In this document: in pieces, positions 13,762-41,574 of the stretch | Layout of the letters: every line of letters begins with the position of its first letter | Numbering within the stretch: position 1 is the first letter of the stretch | From: Streptomyces davaonensis JCM 4913 | GTDB taxonomy: Bacteria; Actinomycetota; Actinomycetes; Streptomycetales; Streptomycetaceae | Length of the DNA stretch: 64,000 bases | NCBI RefSeq assembly: GCF_000349325.1 | Contig: NC_020504.1 | Coordinates: 3,444,053 to 3,508,052 of the forward strand | Direction of reading: 5' to 3' | The notes under the pieces: model-generated | Database searches by the model: none | What the model was told of the DNA's origin: nothing | The model's input: only the letters and a program-made list of their open reading frames with translations | Translations under genes and position numbers: made by a program

Positions 13762-15369
13762 TCACTTGGAGGCGCTGGTCGCCTTCGGGGCGACCGGGGC
13801 GTCCTCGCCGAGCAGCTTGCCGTCCGACGTCTCGAACTGCTTCTTGAAGTCCGCGATGGCGTCGGCGACAGCGGTGAGGGTGTCGTCCGAGAGCTTGCCG
13901 CCCTCCTTGATGGAGGTCATGAGGCCCTGCTCCTTGCGGTGCAGGTACTCCAGCAGCTCCTTCTCGAAGCGGCGGATGTCGGCGACCGGCACCTCGTCCA
14001 TCTTGCCGGTGGTGCCGGCCCAGACGGAGACGACCTGGTCCTCGGTGGACATCGGCTGGTACTGAGCCTGCTTCAGCAGCTCGACCATCCGCTGACCGCG
14101 CTCCAGCTGCGACTTCGACGCGGCGTCCAGGTCGGAACCGAAGGCGGCGAACGCCTCCAGCTCACGGAACTGGGCGAGGTCCACGCGGAGGCGACCGGAG
14201 ACCTGCTTCATCGCCTTGTGCTGCGCGGAACCACCGACTCGGGAGACGGAGATACCGACGTTCAGCGCGGGGCGCTGACCGGCGTTGAACAGGTCCGACT
14301 CCAGGAAGCACTGGCCGTCGGTGATGGAGATGACGTTGGTCGGGATGAACGCCGAGACGTCGTTGGCCTTCGTCTCGACGATCGGCAGACCGGTCATCGA
14401 GCCGGCGCCCATGTCGTCGGAGAGCTTCGCGCAGCGCTCCAGCAGACGGGAGTGCAGGTAGAAGACGTCACCCGGGTAGGCCTCACGGCCCGGCGGACGG
14501 CGCAGCAGAAGCGACACGGCGCGGTAGGCGTCGGCCTGCTTGGACAGGTCGTCGAAGATGATGAGGACGTGCTTGCCCTCGTACATCCACTGCTGACCGA
14601 TGGCCGAACCGGTGTACGGCGCCAGGTACTTGAAGCCGGCCGGGTCGGACGCCGGGGCGGCGACGATGGTCGTGTACTCCAGCGCGCCGTTCTCCTCCAG
14701 CGCGCGGCGGACCGACGCGATCGTCGAGCCCTTCTGGCCGATGGCGACGTAGATGCAGCGGACCTGCTTGTTCGGGTCGCCGGTGCGCCAGTTGTCGCGC
14801 TGGTTGATGATCGTGTCGACGGCCAGGGCGGTCTTGCCGGTCTGACGGTCACCGATGATCAGCTGACGCTGGCCACGGCCGATCGGGGTCATCGCGTCGA
14901 CGGCCTTGTAGCCGGTCTCCATCGGCTCGTGCACCGACTTGCGCTGCATGACCGTGGGGGCCTGCAGCTCAAGGGCACGACGACCGCTGGTCTCGATCTC
15001 GCCGAGGCCGTCGATCGGGTTGCCGAGCGGGTCGACGACGCGGCCGAGGTAGCCCTCGCCGACGGCCACGGAGAGCACCTCACCGGTGCGCTGCACCGGC
15101 TGGCCCTCCTCGATGCCGCTGAACTCACCGAGGACGATGGCACCGATCTCGCGCTCTTCGAGGTTGAGCGCGAGGCCGAGGGTGCCGTCCTCGAACTTCA
15201 GCAGTTCGTTGGCCATGGCCGAGGGCAGACCCTCGACCTTCGCGATGCCGTCGCCGGCAAGGGTGACCGTACCGACCTCCTCGCGCGAGGCCGCGTCCGG
15301 CTTGTACGACTGGACGAAGGTCTCCAGTGCGTCCCGGATCTCCTCCGGCCGGATCGTGAGCTCCGCCAT
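13762..15369 (-). CDS. atpA: F-type ATP synthase alpha subunit
   Basis: A 535-residue non-catalytic nucleotide-binding subunit of F1. It shows the P-loop [15 protein letters not shown], the signature [20 protein letters not shown] and the Gln-rich N-terminal alpha domain. The C-terminus has a Lys/Ala/Ser tail ([10 protein letters not shown]) usual for the genus. The ATG at 15369 (MAELTIRP) was chosen over an upstream in-frame start at 15408. The 126-bp gap before it contains a 7-bp GC hairpin at 15418-15434. Confidence 0.97.
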
Positions 15370-15495
15370 CTGGGTTCCCTGCTCTCCTTGTTGGGCCCGA
15401 AGTTTCACTTTGGGGGTCTGGGGGCGACCCCCAGGATTCTTCTGTACGGCCCAACCAGGGCCGTCGAAAGTACGTACTGCGTATTGAGTTACTGC

Positions 15496-16311
15496 TCAGC
15501 CCGCCAGGCGGCGGCCGGCGTCCTCGATGCGGTCGGCGAGGGAGCCGTTGATGACCTCGTCACCGACCTGCACCCGGATCCCGCCGAGGACCTCGGGGTC
15601 CACGTCGAGGTTGAGGTGCATCCGACGCCCGTAGAGCTTCGCCAGCGAGGCGCCGAGGCGCTGCTTCTGGCCGTCGCTCAGCGGAACCGCGGAGGTGACC
15701 ACGGCGACCATGCGGTCCCGGCGCTCGGCGGCGAGCTTGGACAGGGACTCCAGTCCCGACTCCAGGCTACGTCCACGCGGCGCGGTCACAAGGCGCGTCA
15801 CCAGACGCTCGGTGGTCGCGGCCGCCCGGCTGCCGAGCAGGCTGCGCAGCAGCTCGCTCTTGGCCGAGGTGCTCGCCGAGCGGTTGGTCAGCGCGGCCCG
15901 CAGCTCGGTGTTGGAGGAGACGATCCGGCCGAACCGGAACAGCTCGTCCTCGACGCTGTCGAGCGTGCCCGCACGCTGGGCGGCGGTGAGGTCGGCGATG
16001 TCCGCCAGCTGCTCCAGGGCGTCGACCAGGTCGCGCGACTGCGACCAGCGGGAGCGCACCAGACCGGCCAGCAGGTCCGCGGTCTCGCCGCCGACCTGGC
16101 CGCCGAGCAGCCGCTGGGCCAGCTCGGCCTTGGCCTCACCGGCCTGCGCCGGGTCGGTGAGGACCCGACGCAGCGACACCTCGCGGTCGAGCAGCGCGGT
16201 GACGGCCGCCAGCTCGTCGGCGAGCTGCGCCGCGTCCACGGACGTGTTGTCCGTCAGCGCGTCGAGACGCTCACGTCCGGCTGCCAGGGCCTCGCGGCTC
16301 GCTCCGTTCAT
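15496..16311 (-). CDS. atpH: F-type ATP synthase delta subunit
   Basis: A 271-residue peripheral-stalk subunit (OSCP). The C-terminal core is recognisable: VTSAVPLSDGQKQRLGASLAKLYGR and LDVDPEVLGGIRVQVGDEVINGSL. At 271 residues it is longer than the roughly 180-residue E. coli delta because of an N-terminal extension, a normal feature of streptomycetes; it is not the b-delta fusion of mycobacteria. The start overlaps the atpF stop by 4 bp (ATGA). Confidence 0.96.
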   Translation of the reverse strand: MNGASREALAAGRERLDALTDNTSVDAAQLADELAAVTALLDREVSLRRVLTDPAQAGEAKAELAQRLLGGQVGGETADLLAGLVRSRWSQSRDLVDALEQLADIADLTAAQRAGTLDSVEDELFRFGRIVSSNTELRAALTNRSASTSAKSELLRSLLGSRAAATTERLVTRLVTAPRGRSLESGLESLSKLAAERRDRMVAVVTSAVPLSDGQKQRLGASLAKLYGRRMHLNLDVDPEVLGGIRVQVGDEVINGSLADRIEDAGRRLAG

Positions 16312-36336: not shown

Positions 36337-37494
36337 TCAGAGGTGTTCGGGTGCGTCGATGCCGAGCAGGGACAGGCCACCGGCCAGCACCGCCCCGGCG
36401 GCTTCGGCGAGCGCGAGCCGGGCACGGTGGGCGGCCAAGGGTTTCTCCGCGCCACGCGGCAGCACGGCAGGCAGGAACGCGAGGGCGGCATCGGCGACGG
36501 TGACGAGGTGCCGGGCGAGGCGGTCGGGGGCGCGGTGCTCGGCGGAGGCGGCGAGGATGCGGGGGTGGTCGGCGAGGGCGGAGGTCAGGGCCTGGGCCTG
36601 GGCCTGGGCCTCGGGAGTGGGTCCCGGGTCGCCCGGGTCGCCCGGGTCGGAGGTGAAGCCGAGGGCGGAGGTGCCCGGTTGGGCCGCTGGGGGACGGGCG
36701 TCGCGAGTGGACCCCGGGTCGCCCGGTTCGGAGGTGAAGCCGAGGGCGGTGGCGTTGCGGGTGAGGGCGCGGGTGCGGGCGTGGGCGTAACGGACCCGGA
36801 AGAGGGGGTTGGCCTCGCGCTGGACGAGGTGTTCGCCGTCGATGCGGGGCCGGTCGTGGGCGGCGGGGTGGAGCAGCGCCCAGCGGGCGGCGTCGCGTCC
36901 GAGCGGCAGCGGATCGGAGGGTGCCGGAACGGGTCGTACGTTGACGTCGAGCGGCGCGGGGGCGCCGGGCCGCCCGGAGGCGTCGACGCGCACACCGAGC
37001 ACGCCCACCCACCCCTCCTCGGGCGAAGCCACGCAACTGGTCCGGACTCGGGCCGCCTGCGACCGCAGCAGCCGAGCGACGACGTCCATGACGACCACGG
37101 CGCGCACCTCGTGCGGACAGTGCAGCTGCACGACCTGCCCACTCAGCCGGTCCGAGAACCCGTACCGCGCCCCGAGCCGCAGGATCTCCTCGACAAGCGC
37201 AGCGGTCCCGGCGCCCCGCAGACTGAAGTTGATGAATCCGGGCCCCGTGACGACGACGTCGGCGACCCCGTCCTCCCCCACGAGATGCGGCCGCAGGATC
37301 TCGGCGACGCGCAGAGGTGTCTGCCCCGCCGGGCGGGCGAGCTGGAGGGCGACGTTGGTGGCGTAGTCCCCACAGCCACCGGGCCCGGGAACGGTCACCA
37401 GCACCCGCTCCGGCACGGCCACGCGCAGTTCCCCCTGATCGACAGCACGACGCACCGCGCGCAGCACGGTACGGGAGAGCTCGACGGGGGTCAC
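36337..37494 (-). CDS. nrtL: ArgRS-related protein without catalytic core (NrtL type)
   Basis: A 385-residue relative of arginyl-tRNA synthetase. The N-terminal additional domain is recognisable ([19 protein letters not shown] and [11 protein letters not shown]), and the C-terminal DALR anticodon-binding helices are present ([21 protein letters not shown] onward to the end). The Rossmann catalytic core with HIGH and KMSKS motifs is missing, so it cannot aminoacylate. An internal repeat ([22 protein letters not shown]) forms a Pro/Gly linker. It occupies the argS position upstream of lysA and lies 700 bp from a tRNA-Arg gene. Function unknown; tRNA binding is an inference. Confidence 0.88.
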
Positions 37495-38192: not shown

Positions 38193-38264
38193 GCCCCCGT
38201 AGCTCAGGGGATAGAGCAACGGCCTCCGGAGCCGTGTGCGCAGGTTCGAATCCTGCCGGGGGCA
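38193..38264 (+). tRNA. tRNA-Arg (anticodon CCG)
   Basis: A complete cloverleaf: acceptor GCCCCCG/CGGGGGC with A discriminator, D arm GCTC/GAGC, anticodon stem ACGGC/GCCGT with loop CTCCGGA (anticodon CCG), and T arm GCAGG-TTCGAAT-CCTGC. No CCA is encoded. Its 3' half is the probable attachment site of the decayed integrative element that follows. Confidence 0.97.
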
Positions 38265-38318
38265 CTCGCCAGATCACCTACGAAGTTTCGTACCTGGCCT
38301 GTGCGGATGCCGACAGAA

Positions 38319-38353
38319 GAGGGCGGGAGCCAGTCTCACTGACTCCCGTCCTC
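38319..38353. terminator. Terminator downstream of tRNA-Arg
   Basis: A 16-bp stem (38319-38334 and 38338-38353) with one mismatch, one G-U pair and a 3-nt loop, 55 nt past the tRNA. The interval 38354-38559 holds nothing else I can support. Confidence 0.75.
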
Positions 38354-38559
38354 TCTCGTTGTCGCGCACAGTTCGCGTGTGAGGAGCGTGAGGGCCAGCA
38401 GCCGATGCCTGCCCGCTGCGTGCGCGCGGAACCACAGCCGCCGGGATCTCCGTGGCGGCGAGCCGAGCCAGCAACCGGTCGCGCTGGCGGTCAGATCCAA
38501 ACCACCGGCGGTAAGAGGGTCGTACGAGCGCGTACCACCACTGCCGCCAGCCGGGGCCT

Positions 38560-39234
38560 TCAGTCTGTCTCTCTGACGTAGCAGTGGGAGTATTTACCGG
38601 AGGACGTGAACTTGGGCAGGTCATTTCGGAAGAAGTAGATTCCCCGATCGTCTCCCGCACTCATTTCATCGACTGCCTTCTTTGACACAATCAGGCAGAA
38701 ATTCTCAGCCAACGGCTTGCGGCTCCCGGACCGACCCAACTGAATGTACCCCTCATATCGGCCCGGCTGGAGCGCCCAGCTGTCGTCTCGGAATTGAAAC
38801 ATTGGCTGCTGCGGTTTGTCCTGACTGACGAGGAATGGCGCTGGGTCGCCAGACCATTCGATCCTGATCTCGTCGGACTCAAAATCAAAATACGGCGTAC
38901 CATTGCTCTGCCAGTAGAAATTTGGCCTCTTTGACGAAGAACTCGCGCCGACAGGTTTAATTCGCAAACGCGCGTCACTGATCACCTCGACATCTTGCGA
39001 CTTAAACCTGGTGGACACTGTCGGCTGAAAGTAGATCAAGGTTCCTTGGCCTGCTGGCCCAATTCGCATGAGATGCGGAAGCGTCACATCAAGTCTCGGC
39101 TTCTGTTGAAGCTCAGCCCAGTTGTAGAGCGAAAGAGCCAGGGCGGCGAGAGCGGCAGCTGTAGCTGCCCACTTGTGGATAGCGTCGTACCAGACTCTTC
39201 GGCGCGCCGATGCCACCTCGCCACCATCTGCCAT
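38560..39234 (-). CDS. Membrane-anchored hypothetical protein, low-GC cargo gene
   Basis: A 224-residue protein of no family I know. One transmembrane helix (about residues 22-42, AATAAALAALALSLYNWAEL) is followed by an extracytoplasmic domain with mixed, polar sequence such as TLIYFQPTVSTRFKSQDVEV and NFYWQSNGTPYFDFES. Base composition is clearly poorer in GC than all neighbours, with many A/T-ending codons, which points to horizontal gain. It lies between tRNA-Arg and the broken integrase and is probably surviving cargo of that element. A role in element maintenance or phage defence is only speculation. Confidence 0.75.
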   Translation of the reverse strand: MADGGEVASARRRVWYDAIHKWAATAAALAALALSLYNWAELQQKPRLDVTLPHLMRIGPAGQGTLIYFQPTVSTRFKSQDVEVISDARLRIKPVGASSSSKRPNFYWQSNGTPYFDFESDEIRIEWSGDPAPFLVSQDKPQQPMFQFRDDSWALQPGRYEGYIQLGRSGSRKPLAENFCLIVSKKAVDEMSAGDDRGIYFFRNDLPKFTSSGKYSHCYVRETD

Positions 39235-39442: not shown

Positions 39443-39944
39443 TCAGGGCACCCAGCCCATGGCCATCTCGATCCTCCCGTTGTTCTCTGCCTCGCTGTCG
39501 TCGACTACTCCCGCATAGCGGCGGTGGATCACCTCTGGGGAGTTGCCCGCAGGCCGGGCTGCTTCAGCCACAGGGAGTCCCGCGCGGAGCCAGTTCGTAA
39601 TGCACGTGGCTCGCAGGTCGTACGGCTTCCGAGCGAGGGGCGAAGCAACCTTGTCCGGCGGGAGCGCAAACGGTCGGGCTTCCTGCCACACCCTCCAGTA
39701 GCTCGAGGTCCCGAGCAAGCCGCCACGCTCGTCGGGAAGAGCCGCCCACCCTTGGCCGTCCCGAATTCCGTCCGATGTGCCCGGAGCATCGCCACGAGTA
39801 CGGGGGGAATCGGTACGGGCCAGTCGCTGCCAGGCTCCCGTGACTTCAGCCCCCGCGTGTCGGTCCAATTCTTTCCCGCGACAGGACGCGTCTCGCGAAG
39901 AGTGAGAGTTCCCCACTCTTTCTCGGGAAGGTGGCAGACCGCTA
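39443..39944 (-). pseudogene. Tyrosine-recombinase integrase, 3' fragment (frameshifted, split by IS)
   Basis: This encodes the C-terminal catalytic half of a phage/ICE-type integrase. Read from the IS edge the frame gives HLPEKEWGTLTLRETRPVAG, then GLKSREPGS, PVPIPPVLVAMLRAH and GRLFP. A one-base deletion near 39731-39740 then shifts the frame, and the downstream part continues as DERGGLLGTSSYWRVWQEA, ARKPYDLRATCITNWLRAG and AGNSPEVIHRRYAGVVDDSE, with the catalytic Tyr in RRYAG. The gene is thus inactivated twice: by the IS insertion and by the frameshift. The 5' part resumes at 41074. Confidence 0.88.
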
Positions 39945-39965
39945 GTGTCCTGAGTCGTTAGTTCG
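39945..39965 (+). repeat. Left terminal inverted repeat of the IS630 element
   Basis: It matches the complement of 41053-41073 in 20 of 21 positions (G/A difference at position 17). It is preceded by the TA duplication at 39943-39944. Confidence 0.92.
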
Positions 39966-39987
39966 CTTGCGGTTGTAGGGTGGGGCG

Positions 39988-41076
39988 GTGCCTGGTCCGA
40001 AGCCGTTGCCGCTGGAACTGTCCGATCACGAACGCCGGGTGCTGCGGGGTTGGTTGCGCAAACAGACCGCCTCGCAGGCGCTGGTGTTGCGGTCGAGGGT
40101 CGTGCTGGCGTGCGCGGAGGGCATGTCGAACGCGCGGGTCGCGGATGACCTGGGTGTCTCGCGGGAGACGGTGCGCAAGTGGCGGTCCCGGTTCGCCGCG
40201 GACCGGCTGGAGGGTCTGGTGGACCGGCCGCGTCCGGGGCCGCCGCGGAAGATCACGGACGAGCAGGTCGAAGCTCTGGTCGCCAGGACGCTCGGCCAGG
40301 CGCCGCCGACGGGTGATTCGCACTGGTCGACGCGTTCGATGGCCGATGCCGCGGGCATGTCGCAGTCGGCTGTCTCGCGGATCTGGCGGGCGTTCGGCCT
40401 CAAACCGCACATCGTGGAGACCTGGAAACTGTCGACCGACCCGCAGTTCGTGACCAAGGTCCGCGACGTGGTGGGCATTTACCTGTCCCCGCCGGAGAAC
40501 GCCCTGGTTCTGGCGGTCGACGAGAAGTCGCAGATACAGGCCTTGGACCGGACCCAGCCAGTGCTGCCGATGGCGCCGACCACGCCGGCGAGGATGACGC
40601 ACGACTACGTCCGGCATGGCACAACCAGCTTGTTCGCCGCCCTGGACATCGCCTCTGGCTCGGTCATCGCCCAGCACTACCGCCGCCACCGCCACCAGGA
40701 GTTCCTTCGCTTCCTGAAGGTCATCGACGCGGCCGTTCCCAAGCACCTCGAACTCCACCTGATCCTGGACAACTACGCCACCCACAAGACCGAGCCGGTC
40801 AAGAAGTGGCTGCTTCGGCATCCCCGCTTCCATCTGCACTTCACTCCCACCTCGGCGTCCTGGCTCAACCTCGTCGAGCGCTGGTTCGCGGAGCTGACCT
40901 GCCGCAAACTCCGCCGCTCGGCCCACCGCAGCGTCGTCGAACTGGAACGGGACATCCGCGGCTGGATCAACGAGTGGAACAAGAGCCCCAAGCCGTTCGT
41001 CTGGACGAAGACCGCCGACGACATCCTCGACACTCTTGCCGCGTACTGCACACGAATTAACGACTCAGGACACTAG
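39988..41076 (+). CDS. IS630-family transposase
   Basis: A 362-residue DDE transposase. The N-terminus has two helix-turn-helix segments (NARVADDLGVSRETVRKW and SMADAAGMSQSAVSRIWRAF). The catalytic triad is D178 (LAVDEKS), D261 (LILDNYATHK) and E297 (LNLVERWF), with 35 residues between D261 and E297 as expected for IS630. It starts with GTG at 39988. The stop TAG is made from the duplicated target TA plus the first flanking G, so the element supplies no stop of its own. No frameshift is seen, so it may be active. Confidence 0.95.
   Translation: MPGPKPLPLELSDHERRVLRGWLRKQTASQALVLRSRVVLACAEGMSNARVADDLGVSRETVRKWRSRFAADRLEGLVDRPRPGPPRKITDEQVEALVARTLGQAPPTGDSHWSTRSMADAAGMSQSAVSRIWRAFGLKPHIVETWKLSTDPQFVTKVRDVVGIYLSPPENALVLAVDEKSQIQALDRTQPVLPMAPTTPARMTHDYVRHGTTSLFAALDIASGSVIAQHYRRHRHQEFLRFLKVIDAAVPKHLELHLILDNYATHKTEPVKKWLLRHPRFHLHFTPTSASWLNLVERWFAELTCRKLRRSAHRSVVELERDIRGWINEWNKSPKPFVWTKTADDILDTLAAYCTRINDSGH
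41053..41073 (-). repeat. Right terminal inverted repeat of the IS630 element
   Basis: It overlaps the 3' end of the transposase gene and encodes its last residues. The target TA follows at 41074-41075. Confidence 0.92.
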
Positions 41077-41484
41077 TTGGAGCCCGACCACTTCCGTCGG
41101 TCGCATTGCGGCATAGAGGACGCTCCCAAAGAACGCGACAAGGCGTCTGCCACGGTTTCGATGCACCGATCCGACGTAGGAGACGGCGGTGAGGAGTTGC
41201 CACCCCTGTATTTCATTGACCAGGACTCGCGGGTACACGCCACCCGCTGGCCTTCTCCAGTTACCGGAGGCCATAAGGACGGGCAGCCAGCGGCGACGCC
41301 ACCACGGCCAGCACCCGCGCTTGTGCCACAGCGGCTTCCGCAGCATCTCCCGTTGAATGTACGGGCGAGGGTGCGGCGCCAGCGCGGCGCCGGGGTGGTC
41401 AGGCGGCAAGCCTCCATGACCGAGGCGTAGCACCAGCCCGACCACGACCGAGGCGGTAGAGGTGTCGACGGGGATCTGACGCAT
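41074..41484 (-). pseudogene. Tyrosine-recombinase integrase, 5' fragment (cut by IS)
   Basis: The last 60 codons before the IS read QGWQLLTAVSYVG, GRRLVAFFG and YAAMRPTEVVGLQL, the start of an integrase catalytic domain with the first active-site Arg (MRPTE). Joining across one TA gives VGLQLAVCHLPEKEWGTLT in frame with the 3' fragment. Upstream of about 41280 the reading frame no longer resembles an integrase N-terminus (Trp/Arg-rich), so the 5' half is decayed or deleted. The remaining interval to 41574 holds nothing else recognisable. Confidence 0.8.
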
Positions 41485-41574
41485 GTGCTGAAGTTCGCGC
41501 GGGCGTTGCAGCGCTCAACTGATGCGCACCAGATGCTCAACACCTCGCTCGCACAGTATTCGGGCCCGAGTCGT

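Follow-up and report, generated by a model that had tools for sequence, protein, structure and literature searches.

The window analyzed here, a 64-kb stretch of DNA, lies on the main contig of the 9.56-Mb Streptomyces davaonensis JCM 4913 genome. Beside a tRNA-Arg (CCG) gene it holds an integrase gene in pieces, scraps of transfer genes, and an insertion sequence (IS) lodged between two of the integrase pieces, with the broken integrase 1.2 kb from the tRNA. The features are listed below in window coordinates.

38193–38265, plus strand: tRNA-Arg (CCG), called by ARAGORN; related elements use its 3′ part as their attachment site
38294–38397, plus strand: tail adjoining the tRNA, conserved in related elements by sequence comparison
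38560–39234, minus strand: 224-aa ORF between the tRNA and the integrase gene, probable cargo; DNA relatives at 69–70% in genomes G039 and G182
39443–39944, minus strand: 3′ piece of the integrase (tyrosine-recombinase) gene, 85% DNA identity to genome G153
39731–39735, minus strand: 1-nt deletion (frameshift) in the alignment with G153; the frame changes at 39733
39858–39859, minus strand: position at which 18 nt present in G153 are missing in frame, by alignment; a CGAC repeat bounds the segment in G153
39943–39944, no strand: left TA of the duplicated target, within CTAG 39942–39945
39945–41073, plus strand: insertion sequence of the IS630 family, 1129 bp long assuming a TA duplication; three identical genomic copies
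39988–41076, plus strand: transposase, 362 aa, with DDE_3 and HTH domains; its stop TAG (41074–41076) is the target TA plus the flanking G
41074–41075, no strand: right-hand copy of the duplicated TA target, which also forms positions 1 and 2 of the transposase stop codon
41076–41232, minus strand: middle piece of the integrase gene, 81% DNA identity to G153 over 41079–41232
41236–41270, minus strand: weak integrase scrap from further upstream, corresponding to nt 520–553 of the G153 gene
41352–41436, minus strand: what is left of the N-terminal coding region of an FtsK/SpoIIIE-type transfer gene from an actinomycete integrative and conjugative element (AICE); 83% DNA identity over 75 nt and 69% protein identity over 26 aa
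41437–41485, minus strand: what remains of the beginning of a small gene (MRQIPV...) that precedes the FtsK gene; 69% protein identity over 16 aa, 85–88% at the DNA level

A broken integrase and its relatives

The integrase family is best read from its sequence as a divergent group of tyrosine recombinases. The middle piece carries RPTEVVGL (41080–41103), and the 3′ piece carries YDLRATC (39602–39622) and HRRYAG (39509–39526), so that all three tyrosine-recombinase motifs are present in the window. We compared the pieces with 20 relatives, taken from the 22 best-scoring among 67 other genomes with a match (G163 and G139 were left out). RP.E.VGL and SPEVI.R.Y occur in 19 of these relatives and [YH].LR..C in 15, with GRATC in its place in four others; the three are presumably, in that order, the catalytic Arg, Tyr, and [HY]xxR motifs. 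One branch (L072, L073, L075, and L081) combines GRATC with GTSPEVI where others have LR[AH]xC and GNSPEVI. Against the PF00589 (Phage_integrase) cut-off of 27.1, four full-length relatives scored 28.9 (L082), 25.3 (L088), 16.2 (G153), and nothing (L250); the window pieces had no PF00589 match, and the domain appears in the records of 2 of 38 protein relatives. NCBIfam Xer models and PDB XerD gave weak scores, or scores far below cut-off. Wherever an organism name was given for a protein relative of the integrase piece, it was Streptomyces.

The nearest relative found, G153, has a continuous gene of 489 aa and matches the 3′ piece at 85%. Measured against it, the surviving gene carries two small lesions. 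The 1-bp deletion that the earlier note placed near 39735 recurs in the G153 alignment as a 1-nt frameshift at about 39731–39735. The 18-nt in-frame deletion, by contrast, had been overlooked, as had the upstream FtsK-gene sequence and the stop-less transposase; the residues matching the deleted segment are present in all 20 relatives read. Upstream, integrase homology stops at 41232 relative to G153 and extends up to 41244 relative to other genomes, setting aside the weak scrap at 41236–41270 (83% over 35 nt, E between 5e-5 and 1e-3 depending on search size).

The 5′ half of the gene, which the earlier note called decayed, is better described as deleted, given that integrase sequence yields to scraps of an FtsK gene. 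An origin of 41362–41485 as decayed integrase 5′ sequence was ruled out, since the matches there are to an FtsK-type gene and to the small gene upstream of it. A full-length relative of the FtsK remnant (L049) has PF01580. In other genomes, the small-gene and FtsK pieces lie about 0.4–0.5 kb apart; sequence has therefore been lost between them in the window as well. The 81 bases between the integrase scrap and the FtsK remnant (41271–41351) gave no convincing match. Elsewhere in the same genome, about 165 kb away, a 44-nt stretch (C1:3651101–3651144) matches the FtsK-side scrap at 86% and perhaps marks another AICE.

A probable AICE relic at tRNA-Arg

Related elements at the same tRNA indicate what the locus may once have been. 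In L250, L252, and L253 the integrase gene adjoins the tRNA, and a stretch of 42–47 nt that runs to the tRNA 3′ end or slightly beyond it forms a direct repeat with a second copy at the far end, 13.4–18.6 kb away. The tail at 38294–38397 is 75–81% identical to the tRNA-side stretch in L249, L250, L252, and L253 (shorter in L252) and shares 83% identity with the sequence adjoining the far repeat of L253. Among the ORFs scanned, those of L250 include DUF3631, those of L252 both DUF3987 and Prim-Pol, and those of L253 FtsK/SpoIIIE (28.6 bits, cut-off 24); no domain was detected in two large L250 ORFs or in one from L249. The AICE modules are thus seen across the relatives together and in no single one of them, some of their ORFs having been scanned. 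DUF3631, Prim-Pol, and FtsK/SpoIIIE are given as AICE marks in PMC3218068, where fragments with no more than two components are regarded as probably representing AICE remnants or islands of another kind. A phage origin of the integrase was set aside given the AICE-type genes in these related elements.

In the window, the FtsK/SpoIIIE protein is reduced to N-terminal scraps, and no AICE replication gene was found between the integrase and those scraps, where the 81 unassigned bases lie. The genome has no second copy of the tRNA 3′ end bordering the relic; it holds two partial matches only (31 and 25 nt), more than 2 Mb off. Nor was a second copy of the integrase 3′ piece found in it at the DNA level. 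To judge from these sequences, the locus would be classed as a relic and not as an AICE, because transfer and replication genes are lost and no attachment copy borders it, and as a dead one, because the integrase is broken and neither a second integrase 3′ copy (at the DNA level) nor a second bordering attachment copy was found in the genome. The 224-aa ORF at 38560–39234, which has no match in Pfam or NCBIfam, is probably cargo.

Our reading of the locus, held with high confidence, is that an AICE entered at tRNA-Arg (CCG), decayed by deletion, and had its integrase gene hit by an IS630 element at a CTAG site, leaving the present dead relic. An AICE-type element would have integrated at the tRNA, as the relatives there suggest. 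Deletion would have removed the replication genes, the bulk of the transfer genes, and the 5′ half of the integrase gene, all now absent, in a number of steps that can only be conjectured, and the remaining integrase also carries, in its alignment with G153, the 18-nt deletion and the frameshift. The IS, which sits at two other CTAG sites in the genome, would have inserted at a CTAG in the integrase gene, presumably moving by cut and paste and duplicating TA as its family does.

Such a history is routine. For Streptomyces rhizosphere strains, accretion of AICEs at a tRNA-Arg has been described, along with an ancient trace at that tRNA and an AICE integrase interrupted by a transposon (PMC9513070); those are other strains and other elements than the window relic. 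As one more AICE remnant at a tRNA hot spot, its integrase interrupted by an IS, the locus would itself be ordinary, a transposon-interrupted AICE integrase having already been published.

Three observations concern the surroundings. After the far attachment repeat, L250 has a second integrase-like ORF (14760–16148) with 67% identity over 206 bases to the window integrase, which suggests elements in tandem at tRNA-Arg. An arginyl-tRNA synthetase-like ORF near the tRNA in the window (36337–37494) has only N-terminal and anticodon-binding (DALR) domains detected. The neighboring arginase gene was considered as part of the locus and rejected: in the seven genomes that matched strongly in both listings (G004, G006, G007, G009, G022, G030, and G034), arginase was always either on a different contig from the tRNA-Arg locus or over 1.6 Mb away from it, although separate contigs in draft genomes do not fully exclude nearness.

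Insertion seam, order of events, and target site

That the IS splits a minus-strand integrase gene, and that excising it with one TA restores the frame, had been proposed from the sequence alone and holds up. When 60 nt of each flank were joined by script over one TA, a single frame resulted, FFGSVLYAAMRPTEVVGLQLAVCHLPEKEWGTLTLRETR, with no stop and no base missing; across the one-TA join the minus-strand integrase reads VGLQLAVCHLPEKEWGTLT. With the IS and one TA copy set aside, the window has 10 nt between two stretches matching G153, as does G153 itself. A search for IS-less relatives, which the earlier note had recommended, gave the same picture: the gene is open across the junction in 19 of the 20 relatives, the exception being L076, and tRNA-Arg (CCG) lies within the fetched stretch in 17, being absent from the stretches fetched for L073, L078, and L079. 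L076 and L079 have no DNA match on the upstream side, with the junction motif still present in L079. The observation thus withstands the refuting condition that the earlier note had set, IS-less relatives lacking a continuous integrase at this point. A chance in-frame match at the seam was ruled out, since the same protein runs across this point in 19 of 20 relatives. The same relic without the IS was found in none of 392 genomes (one per species, E up to 1e-60).

The note had further concluded from the intact seam that the insertion is recent relative to the other damage. This argument fails, since every TA insertion, old or new, leaves a perfect seam and the seam therefore dates nothing. The evidence found gives no order between the IS on one side and the frameshift, the 18-nt deletion, and the 5′ loss on the other. 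Substitutions bear on the death of the gene more generally. Along the window branch, the ratio of nonsynonymous to synonymous changes is 22:32 over 216 codons, far below the neutral expectation of about 2.6:1 (p 2e-6), so most of the divergence on this branch accrued with the gene still under constraint. The G153 branch, at 6:17, does not differ significantly (Fisher p 0.30). This pattern fits a late gene death and no particular order of events.

Between the two possible sequences we lean toward one in which the IS arrived last, in an integrase gene already dead. The integrase fragments hold two indels and a large deletion, and the IS copies point the same way: two further copies in the genome, at other CTAG sites, are identical to the window copy over 1129 bp, which implies recent movement or recent homogenization and suggests that the IS has been active recently. 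Gene conversion or re-amplification could nevertheless keep copies identical, and no genome in an intermediate state was found among the 392. The reverse, in which a functional integrase gene was first destroyed by the IS and later suffered the deletions and frameshift, strikes us as possible but rather unlikely. With its junction separating the RPTE motif from the remaining catalytic motifs, the insertion would by itself inactivate the gene, and the substitution ratio indicates constraint until late; loss of the 5′ half would kill the gene equally, however, the likeness of the two branches removes any dating signal for either event, and three identical IS copies favor a late insertion.

The target site admits a finer question. 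Both ends of the IS were said to be fixed to the base; TA within CTAG is indeed found at both ends, but their exact position depends on whether TA or CTAG is taken as duplicated, because with CTAG on both sides a TA duplication around a 1129-bp IS and a CTAG duplication around a 1127-bp IS are the same sequence. TA would be picked here by family precedent only: for ISY100, duplication of TA has been shown in vitro (PMC2170065). A 4-bp CTAG duplication around a 1127-bp IS with ends TGT...ACA is highly improbable. In its favor, CTAG flanks both ends of the three copies in this genome, the sequence is the same under either reading, and the IS481-family TnRErm46 is described with a CTAG-containing direct repeat (PMC6794481); against it, IS630/Tc1-mariner elements duplicate TA, as the in vitro work on ISY100 illustrates. 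None of the 19 relatives with the junction read has CTAG at this site (G153 has CTGG), and the pre-insertion allele was thus not seen among them.

A transposase gene completed by its target

The transposase scores 277 bits against the NCBI IS630 model NF033545 (cut-off 100), which bears out the earlier family assignment, and its DDE_3 and HTH_32/HTH_29 domains exceed their gathering scores. By position it has D178, D261, and E297, with 35 residues separating the last two, presumably the DDE triad. Imperfect inverted repeats of 32 nt (88%) occupy 39942–39973 and 41045–41076. The element thus combines the transposase model, the D/D/E residues, terminal inverted repeats, and TA on both sides that define the IS630 family; an IS630-model transposase and TA at both ends are shared with IS630 and ISY100 (PMC2170065). 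It also uses a rare site, since CTAG occurs 16 times in the 64-kb window, two of these being the IS ends, against about 38 expected from trinucleotides.

The transposase frame stays open to the final base of the IS, and the TAG that follows consists of the target TA and the next G, where translation would presumably end. To see how general this arrangement is, we collected IS ends from 83 sources, namely the window, the two other copies in the genome, and 80 loci drawn from at least 120 stretches. TAG followed the IS at all 89 ends sampled, with 87 distinct 12-nt flanks; the search pattern required TA and left the G free, and of the TA contexts in the window, 27% are TAG. With the TA requirement lifted, TAG followed at 31 of 32 distinct ends, found in the 30 loci returned for 43 matches; the exception reads TGG and belongs to a degenerate copy with stops inside the transposase frame. 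This second set repeats the copies of this genome and probably some of the same genomes, so 89 and 32 are not additive. Among 54 ends judged by a motif filter to be transposase 3′ ends, 50 are open up to the TAG in the stretch examined.

More distant copies, 18 in number, show where the arrangement weakens. Eight, at 59–67% protein identity, have the TAG end at CTAG. The other ten comprise seven with TAG (L295–L301) and three with a TGA of their own (L292–L294, 57–58%). Among the seven, the target origin of the TAG is clear in L296 and L297 and likely in L298 and L299, which share a C-terminus and have different flanks. Of those with their own stop, L292 has no TAG at its right end; L293 and L294, both in the S. 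davaonensis genome (C1:44800–46450 and C1:9395500–9397150), have their own TGA and yet lie at CTAG, as judged at the right end only. Because these last two copies are still at CTAG, strict targeting may have come first and loss of the stop codon second, a ratchet tying the element to its target for the end of its gene. On balance we think it probable, with considerable room for doubt, that a mostly actinobacterial IS630 clade lost its own stop because strict CTAG insertion always supplies TAG.

Parts of this arrangement have precedent. A preference of IS630 for CTAG stands in the title of a paper cited in PMC2170065; beyond that preference, CTAG stands at every one of the 89 ends sampled for the window IS and its relatives, and the window IS has no internal stop codon. 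Target-supplied stops have been published for IS481- and IS5-family elements (PMC6794481, PMC4133298). In TnRErm46/ISRe46 of Rhodococcus equi, the TAG of the CTAG target is the transposase stop, as in the window IS, but the element is described as belonging to the IS481 family and as compound (PMC6794481). ISPsp10 is likewise reported as a stop-less element for which the target supplies the stop and TA is duplicated; it differs in appearing among IS3 and IS5 (IS427 group) elements, with one captured insertion (TAA) analyzed (PMC4133298). Among the titles and abstracts covered, a scope that excludes most subscription papers, we recognized no published IS630 case. The target-supplied stop is therefore a further case in another family and not a new kind.

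A common IS whose gene is completed by its landing site would offer a natural test of how strict target choice can relax coding constraints. For annotators, the consequence is that transposase genes of such elements carry no stop within the element. A search of plasmid records gave 585 with a match, and viral contigs contained a single weak relative of the transposase.
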